This document shows positions 21,673 through 26,279 of a stretch of 37,284 nucleotides of DNA, piece after piece. The DNA comes from Cyclobacteriaceae bacterium (GTDB lineage: Bacteria > Bacteroidota > Bacteroidia > Cytophagales > Cyclobacteriaceae), in contig JAMOMJ010000261.1 in assembly GCA_027067135.1 (NCBI GenBank), positions 1 through 37,284 on the forward strand, given 5' to 3'. Under the pieces are notes generated by a model. It saw only the letters and a program-made list of their open reading frames with translations, did no database searches and had not been told where the DNA came from. Made by a program: the position numbers and the translations under genes. The number at the start of each line of letters is the position of its first letter. The stretch's first letter is position 1.

Positions 21673-22809
21673 ATGGAAAATCAATCTGCTCTATTTCAAC
21701 TGGATTCAAGTGTAACCTATTTAAATGGAGCTTACATGTCTCCTCTTTTAACCTCGCTTGCAAAGATTGGAGAGAGGCAAGTAAGAGCCAAACTAACTCC
21801 TTATAAAATAGGCGCAGACAATTTTTTTGAGAACGTAAAAGCTGTTAAACAAGAGTTTTCCAGATTAATAAACTCAGTAGAACCTGATCGAATTGCCATC
21901 ATTCCATCAGTCTCTTATGGTTTAGCCAATGTGGCTAAAAATGTAGATGTAAGTGATAAAGAAATTTTGGTGGTTTCCGAACAATTTCCAAGCAATATAT
22001 ACCCTTGGAAGGAACTTGAGAAATCTCAAAACGCAAAACTTATTACCATTTCGCCTCCTGACTCCTTAGAAAATAGAGGGGAAATCTGGAATGAAAGAAT
22101 CTTAGCAGCCATTAACTCCAACACGGGAATGGTGGCTATAGCGCATACACATTGGGCAGATGGCACGTTGTTTAATTTGAAAAAGATAAGAAAAAAAACC
22201 AAAGAAATAGGTGCATTACTTATTATTGATGGTACGCAATCCGTAGGTGCTTACCCTTTTGATGTGCAAGAAATAGAGCCTGATGCATTAATTTGTGCAG
22301 GGTATAAGTGGCTTATGGGGCCGTATGGAATAGGCGTTGCGTATTACGGCCCTGCTTTTGATAATGGTACACCCATTGAGCAAAATTGGATTAACCGAAA
22401 AGATAGCGAAAATTTTGCCGCCTTGATTAATTACGAAGATAATTATCAGGCAGGAGCTATGCGGTATTCGGTTGGTGAGCAAAGTAATTTTATTTTATTG
22501 CCAATGATGCTGGAGGCCATTAGGCAACTCAATGCTTGGGGGGTGAATAGCATTCAGCAGTATTGTAAAAGCATTACCGAACAACCTCTTGCCTTGCTCA
22601 AAACGAAGGGCTATTGGGTAGAAGAGTTAGATTTTAGAGGGTCTCATTTATTTGGTATTCGTAAAGAGGGGATGAATGTTGAGCTCATTAAAGAAGAACT
22701 TGAAAAACATCATATTTTTGTATCCATAAGAGGAACTTCTATTCGAGTTTCTCCAAATGTGTATAATACAGAGGCAGATATGATGAAATTGGTAAACATT
22801 TTAAACTAG
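21673..22809 (+). CDS. Class V PLP-dependent aminotransferase / cysteine desulfurase-like enzyme
   Basis: A 378-residue fold-type I PLP enzyme. Cofactor-contact residues: IIDGTQSVGAYPFD gives Asp186 and Gln189, and CAGYKWLMGPYG gives the Schiff-base Lys212. HTHWADG around 158-164 is the usual substrate/PLP loop. A mobile-loop cysteine of true IscS/SufS desulfurases is not evident, so an aminotransferase or lyase role (isopenicillin-epimerase-like or kynureninase-like branch) is as likely. It is followed after six bases by the YCII-like gene and is probably the first gene of an operon running to the response regulator. Confidence 0.85.
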   Translation: MENQSALFQLDSSVTYLNGAYMSPLLTSLAKIGERQVRAKLTPYKIGADNFFENVKAVKQEFSRLINSVEPDRIAIIPSVSYGLANVAKNVDVSDKEILVVSEQFPSNIYPWKELEKSQNAKLITISPPDSLENRGEIWNERILAAINSNTGMVAIAHTHWADGTLFNLKKIRKKTKEIGALLIIDGTQSVGAYPFDVQEIEPDALICAGYKWLMGPYGIGVAYYGPAFDNGTPIEQNWINRKDSENFAALINYEDNYQAGAMRYSVGEQSNFILLPMMLEAIRQLNAWGVNSIQQYCKSITEQPLALLKTKGYWVEELDFRGSHLFGIRKEGMNVELIKEELEKHHIFVSIRGTSIRVSPNVYNTEADMMKLVNILN

Positions 22810-22815
22810 AGAGGT

Positions 22816-23475
22816 ATGAAAAAGCTATTTGTTTTACTTATTTCTTTGCTTTCATTAAGCAATTTATATGGGCAGGAGTTCGATCGGGTGTTTGTGTTCT
22901 TAAACAAGAACCCCAATAAGGCTGTACTGCCCCAAGACTCTGTTGATGTATTAATGGAAGGGCATTTTAAGAATATGGGAGACCTGGGAATCCAAGGTAA
23001 ATTGATAAATGCAGGCCCATTTGAAGGTGGTGGAGGCTTATTTGTGATGAACTCTCCATCGGTTGATACGGTAAATCAATGGCTCCAAACCGACCCTGCG
23101 GTAAGAGCTAATAGATGGAATATTGAAATGTATCCGTTTACTACCACGGTTGGTGGTTCCTGTGTGGTTGGGGCGGCCTATGAAATGGGAATGTATTCGT
23201 TTGTGAGGTATGCACCCAGCAACGAAATTGCAAACTATAAATCGAATGCGAATGAAGCCAAAGAGGTTTCTACGAAGGAATTAATAGCAAGTTTAAACGA
23301 AACGGGAGACCTAATTATGGCAGGTTATTTTGCCAGCAATGAAGGAGGCGTTTTAGTACTAAAAGATGATTCTAGCTTAGAGAAAATTAAGTCGAGTGCA
23401 GCGGCAAATACAGGAGCTATTACATTTGAGTTTAAAGAATTATGGATTGCAAAAGGCTCCTTTTGTGAAGAGTAA
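22816..23475 (+). CDS. Exported protein with two YCII-like domains
   Basis: A 219-residue protein with a Sec signal peptide (MKKLFVLLISLLSLSNLYGQ). The mature N-terminal half is a clear YCII-type ferredoxin-like domain: EGHFKNMGDLGIQGKLINAG, then FEGGGGLFVM and a WLQTDPAVRANRW helix, including the conserved His. The C-terminal half repeats the pattern (LIASLNETGDLIMAGYF, NEGGVLVLKDDSSLEKI) but lacks the histidine, so it looks like a degenerate duplicate. YCII proteins are usually cytosolic single domains; an exported tandem form is unusual. It lies between the PLP enzyme and phosphoesterase genes with gaps of ten bases or less. Confidence 0.75.
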   Translation: MKKLFVLLISLLSLSNLYGQEFDRVFVFLNKNPNKAVLPQDSVDVLMEGHFKNMGDLGIQGKLINAGPFEGGGGLFVMNSPSVDTVNQWLQTDPAVRANRWNIEMYPFTTTVGGSCVVGAAYEMGMYSFVRYAPSNEIANYKSNANEAKEVSTKELIASLNETGDLIMAGYFASNEGGVLVLKDDSSLEKIKSSAAANTGAITFEFKELWIAKGSFCEE

Positions 23476-23484
23476 TTGCAGAAC

Positions 23485-24366
23485 ATGAAAACAATTTATT
23501 CAATAATTTTCCTTCTTGTAGCCAATTGGGCTCAAGCCCAATCTTTAAAAATTGGCATTGTGGCCGACTGCCAATTTTGCGATTGCGATTACAGCGAACG
23601 ATGGAATAATGATTACCGACAAGGGTCACCCCGCCTGCAAGAAGCGGTAGGTAAATTCAACACAAACGAGGTCGAGTTAGTATTTCATTTAGGGGATTTT
23701 ATAGACCGTGATTTTAGCAGTTTTGCTACCGTAAAACCAATCATGAATGGCTTAAAAATGCCTCACTATTTTGCGCTTGGCAATCACGATTTTTCGGTGG
23801 CAGATAGCCTTAAAGGGCAGGTTTTAGAAGCTCTTGACATGACAACGTCTTATTACACCATTGAAAAAGACCCCTGGTTGTTTATTGTGCTAGATGGAAC
23901 GGATATAAGCCCTTATAGTTCAATGGATTCTTCCAAAATAGCCTTTGCCAATGCACAAATGGAGAAGTATAAAAATGAGGGTCGGCCTCAAGCAAAGCCG
24001 TGGAACGGAGCGCTTGGGAAAGAGCAATTAAGATGGCTAGAGGCTCAACTTAATGACGCAGATAAACGAAAGCTAAATGCTATTGTGTTGGCACATTTCC
24101 CGGTGCTCCCATTGGCTGCTCTAAACCTATGGAACGATGTGGAAGTGGTACAAATTCTGGAACAACATAAAAGCGTAAAGGCTTATTTTAATGGGCATCA
24201 CCATCCTGGGAATTATGCAGAAAAAGAAGGTATTCATTATGTAACTTTTCAAGGAATGGTACTGGGTAAAGATGATACAGCCTATGCCATAATTACATTG
24301 GATAAAAAGGAAATTACCATAGAGGGCGTTGGCTGTGAGCCGTTTCGTACATTAAGAGTAAAGTAA
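23485..24366 (+). CDS. Exported ADPRM-like metallophosphoesterase
   Basis: A 293-residue calcineurin-fold phosphoesterase with a signal peptide (MKTIYSIIFLLVANWAQAQ). Metal ligands: VADCQF (Asp28, Gln30), HLGDFIDRD (Asp71), LGNHD (Asn100, His101, Asp102), LAHFPVLP and NGHHHPG. The VADxQ start in place of DxH, the EQLRWLEAQL block, and the GHHHPG-NYAE order followed by GIHYVTFQG resemble the Mn2+-dependent ADP-ribose/CDP-alcohol diphosphatase (ADPRM) family. The export signal implies periplasmic or extracellular nucleotide-type substrates. I chose ATG 23485; a TTG at 23476 is in frame. Confidence 0.82.
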   Translation: MKTIYSIIFLLVANWAQAQSLKIGIVADCQFCDCDYSERWNNDYRQGSPRLQEAVGKFNTNEVELVFHLGDFIDRDFSSFATVKPIMNGLKMPHYFALGNHDFSVADSLKGQVLEALDMTTSYYTIEKDPWLFIVLDGTDISPYSSMDSSKIAFANAQMEKYKNEGRPQAKPWNGALGKEQLRWLEAQLNDADKRKLNAIVLAHFPVLPLAALNLWNDVEVVQILEQHKSVKAYFNGHHHPGNYAEKEGIHYVTFQGMVLGKDDTAYAIITLDKKEITIEGVGCEPFRTLRVK

Positions 24367-24412: not shown

Positions 24413-25588
24413 GTGAACTACTTTTTCAAGATATTATTCCCTAGCTGCTTAGTTGCTTGCCTGTTTTTGCAAAACAGAACAACTGAAGCTTCTCCAATAA
24501 ACCCTCCGCAGTTAAATAGGGTCTGGCTAGATGGGCAACCTTATCGTTGTGATACAGCGATGTCAGCCATCTCAAGGATTTCATTGCCTTATGGCAATAA
24601 TTTTTTTACAGTAGAGTTTATTTCTATTTCCTATAGAAATCAGCACAAACTACAGTATGGGCATAAGCTTGTTGGTATCGATTCAAGTTGGGTGTTTTCG
24701 GGGAATCAACGAAGAGCTAGTTATGCAAATTTAGGCCCTGGCACATACCCCCTCAAGATGAAAGTAAGTTCTGATGGGCTCAATTGGATTGAAAGTGCAC
24801 AAGAAATTAATGTAGTGGTTACCCCTCCTTTTTGGGCAGTTTGGTGGTATCATATTTTGCTTATCGCATTTATATTTTTATTGCTTGCGGTAATTTATAA
24901 AGTGCGGGTAAACGCAGCCATTAAACAGGTGTTAGAAATAGCAGAGATAAGAAAGAAAGAGGCAGAATCTCTTCGTGTGATGATGGCGCAAGATTTTCAT
25001 GATGAAATGGGGAATAAGTTGGCTAGCATTATTGTGCTAGTAAGCACGCTTCAGTTACTAATAAAAGATAAAAATAAAGAGGTACAAAAAGCACTCTCCA
25101 GAATTGAAGTTTCCTCTAAACAATTATTCGATGGTACAAAATCTTTTATATGGTCTATTAACCCTAAAAGCGACCAAATAAGTGAGATAACAAGCTATAT
25201 TAACAATTTTGGGTCAGAACTTTTTGAGCATACACCGATTGAATTTTTGGTGGTTGATAACTTTACAGAAAGAGACAAACAGGTGAGTTTGCCTGTTGGT
25301 TTTAGCAGGCAATTATTCTTTATTTTAAAAGAAGCGATGACCAATGCATTGGTACACTCTAAAGCAAAAAACATTAAGCTTATATACGATGTGGATAAAA
25401 CAAAAAACGGTTTTGCTATTTCGGTAGAAGATGATGGTAAAGGAGTGAGTTCGGAGCAACTAGCCTCTTCGCGAGGGCTAAATAATATGAAGAGCAGAGC
25501 AATTAAGATTAATTATAATTTATCATTCTATCATAACCCTGACGGGGGGTTTGGCGTAAGAATAGAAGGAGAATTCCCTAAAAGATAG
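24413..25588 (+). CDS. Sensor histidine kinase with Y_Y_Y domain but no beta-propeller
   Basis: A 391-residue membrane kinase. A signal/anchor (about 1-25) is followed by a periplasmic Y_Y_Y-type immunoglobulin-like domain (~50-137; YRNQHKLQYGHKLVGID, SYANLGPGTYPLKMKVSSDG). Then come one transmembrane helix (~146-163), a HisKA_3-type dimerisation helix with His196 in AQDFHDEMGNKLASI, and a HATPase domain (Asn311 in LKEAMTNALVHS; DDGKG 340-344; SRGLNNMKSRA). Related Bacteroidota sensors carry long N-terminal propellers; this one has only the Y_Y_Y module. The response regulator gene follows within about 60 bases. It probably controls the adjacent transport locus, by proximity only. Confidence 0.9.
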   Translation: MNYFFKILFPSCLVACLFLQNRTTEASPINPPQLNRVWLDGQPYRCDTAMSAISRISLPYGNNFFTVEFISISYRNQHKLQYGHKLVGIDSSWVFSGNQRRASYANLGPGTYPLKMKVSSDGLNWIESAQEINVVVTPPFWAVWWYHILLIAFIFLLLAVIYKVRVNAAIKQVLEIAEIRKKEAESLRVMMAQDFHDEMGNKLASIIVLVSTLQLLIKDKNKEVQKALSRIEVSSKQLFDGTKSFIWSINPKSDQISEITSYINNFGSELFEHTPIEFLVVDNFTERDKQVSLPVGFSRQLFFILKEAMTNALVHSKAKNIKLIYDVDKTKNGFAISVEDDGKGVSSEQLASSRGLNNMKSRAIKINYNLSFYHNPDGGFGVRIEGEFPKR

Positions 25589-25649
25589 GGTTGTAATACA
25601 TACTTAAACTAACATAATTTTGGAAAGTCAATATAAAAAACTCAACAAC

Positions 25650-26279
25650 ATGCTTGACTTTAGAACTCGAATTGTCATAATAGAAGACAATGAAGCCGTT
25701 AAAGATGGCTATGCTTTAATACTCGGAAGCAATAGTGAATATAATGTGGTGAATACCTACACGTCTGCGGAAGGCGCAATAAAAAATCTTAGAAAAGATA
25801 ACCCCGATGTAATTTTTACCGATTTAGACCTTCCAGGAATGGACGGTATAACTGGTATTAAAAAAATTAAAAAGCTAGATCCTAAAACTAAAATTATTGT
25901 AATAACGGTTCACGAAGACAGCACTAAGGTTTTTGATGCTTTGGTGGCAGGAGCCAATGGCTATATAACCAAAAGCTCTAATCATGTTGAACTGCTTCAA
26001 GCGGTAGAACAAATAATGAACGATGGAGCACCTATGAGCCCGCATGTGGCAAAAATGGTAGTAAGCTCATTTCAACGAAGCACAGATACTCCACTATCGA
26101 ATCGAGAAACGGAGATACTAAGTTTGTTATCTACAGGTAAGACGTATAGAATTGCTGCGGATGAACTCCATATTGGTATGGAAACCGTGAAGAGCCACGT
26201 AAAGAATATCTACTCCAAGCTTCATGCAAAGACGAAATCAGAAGCTCTTGAAATTGCAAGAAGAGACAATCTTATTTAG
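25650..26279 (+). CDS. NarL/FixJ-type response regulator
   Basis: A 209-residue regulator with a receiver domain (IVIIEDNEAVKDGYAL at 8-23, phospho-acceptor Asp58 in FTDLDLPGMDG, ITVHEDS with Thr and His, and the switch Lys in NGYITKSS) and a C-terminal LuxR-type helix-turn-helix (LSNRETEILSLLSTGKTYRI, METVKSHVKNIYSKL). I chose ATG 25650. An upstream TTG at 25620 would add ten residues that do not belong to the receiver fold. It is the cognate partner of the preceding kinase. A REP-derived hairpin with a T-run ends the unit 70 bases downstream. Confidence 0.94.
   Translation: MLDFRTRIVIIEDNEAVKDGYALILGSNSEYNVVNTYTSAEGAIKNLRKDNPDVIFTDLDLPGMDGITGIKKIKKLDPKTKIIVITVHEDSTKVFDALVAGANGYITKSSNHVELLQAVEQIMNDGAPMSPHVAKMVVSSFQRSTDTPLSNRETEILSLLSTGKTYRIAADELHIGMETVKSHVKNIYSKLHAKTKSEALEIARRDNLI

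Follow-up and report, generated by a model that had tools for sequence, protein, structure and literature searches.

On balance, we favor the reading that an exported PLP–YCII unit gained, in one genus of Cyclobacteriaceae, an ADPRM-branch phosphoesterase that has lost its catalytic arginine and has shifted in specificity. The genes lie in a 37,284-nucleotide stretch of DNA (the window), whose contig is C261 of a draft genome (3.47 Mb, 81% complete). Three consecutive genes, here designated PLP, YC, and PE, are all on the + strand, to which every window coordinate below refers. PLP (21673..22809) encodes a predicted cytosolic class-V PLP-dependent enzyme (Aminotran_5, Pfam PF00266, E 2.5e-28), and orthologs with 50–57% identity adjoin YC in other genera. 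YC (22816..23475) encodes a tandem-YCII protein of 219 amino acids, predicted to be exported and to form a single-chain dimeric α+β barrel. PE (23485..24366) encodes a predicted exported ADPRM-branch dimetal phosphoesterase (Metallophos, E 6.3e-16) of 293 amino acids when counted from the ATG at 23485, which we used instead of the mechanical ORF start, a TTG at 23476. The intergenic gaps are 6 bases (PLP–YC) and 9 bases (YC–PE), in agreement with the preliminary description, which placed the genes ten bases or less apart behind a PLP enzyme. Identification of PLP as a cysteine desulfurase was rejected because the curated cutoffs are far above the scores (84.9 bits versus 475.1 for the NCBIfam SufS model). 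A two-component gene pair is located 3' of PE in the window (24413–26279), whereas a BhcB-like PALP dehydratase is found downstream of PE in the two other genus members (G003 and G004); the two-component genes were not included in the PLP–YC–PE unit because they are missing behind PE in these two genomes. The PALP enzyme in G004 (L055:4728-5669; a fragment in G003) is near BhcB (β-hydroxyaspartate dehydratase), with 451.8 bits against a cutoff of 550. A neighboring PE sequence, 71% identical to that of the window, lies in the same gene order.

YC and PE are both probably exported. By a simple hydrophobicity rule used to judge signal-like N-termini, YC scored 2.9 and PE 2.8, compared with about 1.0 for the cytosolic PLP control, bearing out the signal peptides noticed earlier. 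The putative signal peptide of YC spans about residues 1–20 (22816..22875), with a K-rich n-region, a hydrophobic core, and a YGQ cleavage-like site (MKKLFVLLISLLSLSNLYG/QE). That of PE spans about residues 1–18 (23485..23538), with likely cleavage at AQA/QS (MKTIYSIIFLLVANWAQA/QS). The same rule detected signal-like N-termini in all 27 tandem YC sequences and in 35 of 45 scanned DxQ-type PE sequences (a set that includes some duplicates of one locus), and several PE homologs are lipoprotein-like at the N-terminus. YCII homologs from a phylum scan with an exported query also had signal-like N-termini (22 of the 22 examined, a count that omits four loci without a motif match), and exported YCII proteins appear to be common in the phylum Bacteroidota. 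The preliminary description had considered the export of both proteins noteworthy; their export is probable, but for YCII proteins it is not unusual in this phylum. We found no paper on exported ADPRM-like enzymes in Bacteroidetes.

Pfam YCII (PF03795) was found only in domain 1 of YC, with 26.9 bits against a gathering cutoff of 24. Because a phmmer search against the PDB gave only chance matches and a profile search only a weak match to 1mwq (E 0.14), a fold search was needed. The AlphaFold2 model of YC (27-row alignment, pLDDT 90) is a two-domain barrel of the ferredoxin-like dimeric α+β type typical of YCII, and the Foldseek matches were HemQ and chlorite dismutase-like proteins (TM about 0.5) and, for one domain, YciI HI0828 (1mwq). 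YC thus shares with chlorite dismutase and coproheme decarboxylase HemQ the arrangement of two ferredoxin-like domains in one chain, but the identity is only about 10%. With HI0828 it shares the domain fold, the family histidine, and a domain 1 above the Pfam cutoff. YC differs from HI0828 in having two domains in one chain, probable export, a likely disulfide, no counterpart of the HI0828 aspartate loop, and a second domain without the histidine.

The kept family histidine of domain 1, His50 (22963..22965), is His in 26/27 sequences and corresponds in the alignment to the conserved histidine of HI0828. Its domain 2 counterpart is absent: Thr153 (23272..23274) occupies a site that is His in 21/27 aligned tandem sequences, confirming that YC is a tandem-YCII protein whose second domain has lost the family histidine. 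This site is T, I, and T in the three genus members and Q, T, and T in L075–L077, where the loss was separate. Domain 2 also departs from the family at Ala169 (mostly Glu) and Ala195 (nearly constant Pro). It is constrained within the genus (dN 0.16 versus dS 1.65), suggesting that it is retained as a structural half of the barrel. The sole cysteines of the mature window protein, Cys116 (23161..23163) and Cys217 (23464..23466), are both present in 25/27 sequences and both absent in the other two, a pattern that fits a probable periplasmic disulfide. Because the two double losses occur in one genus, they were counted as one event, and we did not accept the covariation as strong evidence of a disulfide. 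In another genome (G147, L038/L089), an in-frame stop or a change of frame interrupts the tandem YC gene, a probable pseudogene, while the adjoining PLP gene is intact.

PE matched zebrafish ADPRM (2nxf) best in sequence (E 1.8e-17), profile (E 3.9e-47), and fold (E 2.7e-24) searches. The AlphaFold2 model of PE (pLDDT 92.6) is closest to 2nxf among solved structures in Foldseek (TM 0.83), with a purple acid phosphatase next (E 7.9e-13). The active site was read from the alignment with 2nxf. The ADPRM-type DxQ metal motif, Asp28-Cys-Gln30 (23566..23574), aligns with Asp13/Gln15 of 2nxf and is a D[V/I]Q-type first motif with Gln as a metal ligand and Cys instead of V/I in the middle. The dimetal motif DX[H/X]-GDXX[D/X]-GNH[D/E]-[G/X]H-GHX[H/X] is complete (Asp28, Gly70-Asp71, Gly99-Asn100-His101-Asp102, His204, and Gly237-His238-x-His240). 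All predicted metal ligands (Asp28, Gln30, Asp71, Asn100, His204, His238, and His240) and His101 of the GNH motif are intact. The sequence and the predicted structure support the placement of PE in the ADPRM branch rather than in another metallophosphoesterase branch, as had been suggested at the outset. In addition to these features, PE shares with human, rat, and zebrafish ADPRM an aromatic residue at the Phe210 position (Trp173 in PE). It differs from them in its probable export, the Cys in the first motif, a shortened s2s3 loop, specificity positions (Phe37 and Cys253) that are unrecognizable in the alignment, and the residue at the position of Arg43.

Arg43 of human ADPRM, located in the s2s3 element, is described as invariant in the family and is needed for the hydrolysis of ADP-ribose and CDP-alcohols; the R43A mutation causes an about 10,000-fold loss of activity on diphosphate substrates and a 200-fold loss on 2',3'-cAMP (PMC4334965). 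In PE, the corresponding residue (Arg31 in the zebrafish enzyme) is Asn42 (23608..23610), and Asn is also present in both other genus members. The loss makes a nucleotide-diphosphate substrate less likely for PE. The nearby Arg39 or Arg45 of the window PE could replace Arg43, although both other genus members have Gln in place of Arg39 and one has Lys in place of Arg45. Every member of the clade comprising the genus and Saprospiraceae lacks the arginine (N, S, or A at this position), whereas it is kept in most other DxQ-type PE relatives within the family and is missing in four distant phylum members. In one family of the phylum (f35, L118–L137), the PE relatives, which form a separate clade, almost uniformly have DxH for DxQ and no Arg43.

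We surveyed 149 genomes of the family (E at or below about 1e-118 for PLP and about 1e-43 for PE) and found tandem YC in 29, a close PLP in 61, and PE in 30. YC and PE occur together in only four genomes, compared with 5.8 expected by chance (p 0.44), with the reservation that draft genomes may conceal distant gene copies in such counts. Three of these genomes, all from one genus (G000, G003, and G004), are the only ones in which the two genes are adjacent; in the fourth, they are unlinked. No YC was located beside PE in other genera among the PE loci examined, and the phylum scan did not reveal any YC–PE linkage. PLP is present in 22 of the 29 YC genomes (Fisher p 3.6e-5), lying within 1.7 kb of YC in 14 of the 29. 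The orders PLP–YC, PLP–EamA–YC, and EamA–YC recur across genera, and an EamA transporter adjoins YC in some genomes with or without PLP. Since YC–PE adjacency is confined to the three genus genomes and other PE loci have no YC, the pair is genus-specific, while PLP–YC is the more widespread unit. The pair and the histidine loss in this genus each reflect few independent events, in three genomes.

In the PE tree, the genus is united with Saprospiraceae (support 100/90), and the other Cyclobacteriaceae copies are placed apart. This position suggests horizontal transfer, and PE was probably acquired with the involvement of Saprospiraceae-like bacteria. The closest proteins outside the genus, the Saprospiraceae multidomain proteins L050, L051, and L053, are 39–45% identical to PE and also Arg-less but are distinguished by their length (about 645 amino acids), an extra C-terminal region, and a dockerin-like end. 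In L051:3786-5735, the long C-terminal region ends in a repeat that appears dockerin-like by eye (DMNLDGDINGADK), and Pfam gave no match there. Comparison of the genus members shows purifying selection on PLP, YC, and PE alike (dN 0.13–0.21 versus dS 1.7 or saturated), and gene order and constraint on PE persist in the three genomes down to 58% identity. Elsewhere in the PE tree, one clade (L086, L087, L099, L106, and L184–L186) has PE adjoining or joined to a longer ORF that includes a carbohydrate esterase of the SASA type (the Pfam identification of SASA is from L086 only), often near gyrase/topoisomerase genes. At L083, L084, L179, and L183 (and L180), the neighborhood of PE includes a DAO-type FAD oxidoreductase and a distant paralog of the class-V PLP enzyme. 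This paralog has about 20% identity to the PLP of the window and, in L083 and L084, an exported-looking N-terminus.

We propose a model based on gene order, linkage, homology, and residue losses. The conserved unit would consist of the class-V PLP enzyme followed by the exported tandem-YCII protein, often with an added EamA-type transporter in other genera. YC would be located in the periplasm as a single-chain dimer whose two YCII domains are probably secured by one disulfide; in this genus, it would work with the single His site of domain 1, domain 2 having turned structural. YC would most likely perform acid/base chemistry, as an isomerase or a lyase does, on a small metabolite tied to the PLP enzyme, a tie supported by the linkage of the two genes. 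PE would have been inserted directly behind YC in this genus only, probably by horizontal transfer with Saprospiraceae-like bacteria. Its clade keeps the whole predicted dimetal centre but has lost the arginine that contacts pyrophosphate. Because of this residue loss and the tree, we infer a shifted specificity: PE would cleave some extracytoplasmic phosphoester, a monoester or a cyclic or simple diester, and would not be an efficient ADP-ribose or CDP-alcohol diphosphatase. A broader version, which we offer tentatively, is that the genus and Saprospiraceae enzymes form an exported Arg-less subfamily of the ADPRM branch with a new substrate, coupled in the genus to a one-site tandem YCII protein.

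The preliminary description had proposed that YC and PE may constitute a dedicated pathway outside the cytoplasm that acts on nucleotide-linked metabolites, with ADP-ribose, CDP-alcohols, and cyclic ADP-ribose as candidates. The probable export of both proteins, their 9-base spacing, the order kept in three genus members, and the ADPRM-type metal ligands of PE are compatible with such a pathway. However, the pair is unlinked in relatives outside the genus, where the two genes do not co-occur above chance, an outcome set beforehand as counting against the proposal. PE also has no equivalent of Arg43, whose mutation to Ala is costly in the human enzyme (PMC4334965), and no nucleotide-related genes recur beside YC in the loci examined. 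The pathway is not supported as stated, and we regard it as improbable. It is somewhat less doubtful, although still clearly disfavored, that PE is a passenger, acquired and inserted behind the transcribed PLP–YC unit without sharing a function with it. The probable horizontal origin of PE and the variation of the downstream genes even inside the genus fit this explanation, whereas the kept order and sequence constraint of PE in three genomes indicate that PE is useful to the cell, and the decay of the second YC domain occurs in the same genus. Finally, the missing arginine might mean that PE is an ADPRM relative with little or no catalytic activity, whose ligand is bound but not cleaved; this appears very unlikely, as the predicted metal-ligand positions and His101 are all intact and PE is under purifying selection.

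The gain of an Arg-less phosphoesterase by the PLP–YCII unit, the reading we prefer, corrects a plausible operon story, in that the lasting partners of YC are the PLP enzyme and the transporter, not PE. We found no function assigned to the exported YCII group that is widespread in Bacteroidota. The Arg-less secreted ADPRM branch would provide natural enzymes for testing the role published for Arg43.
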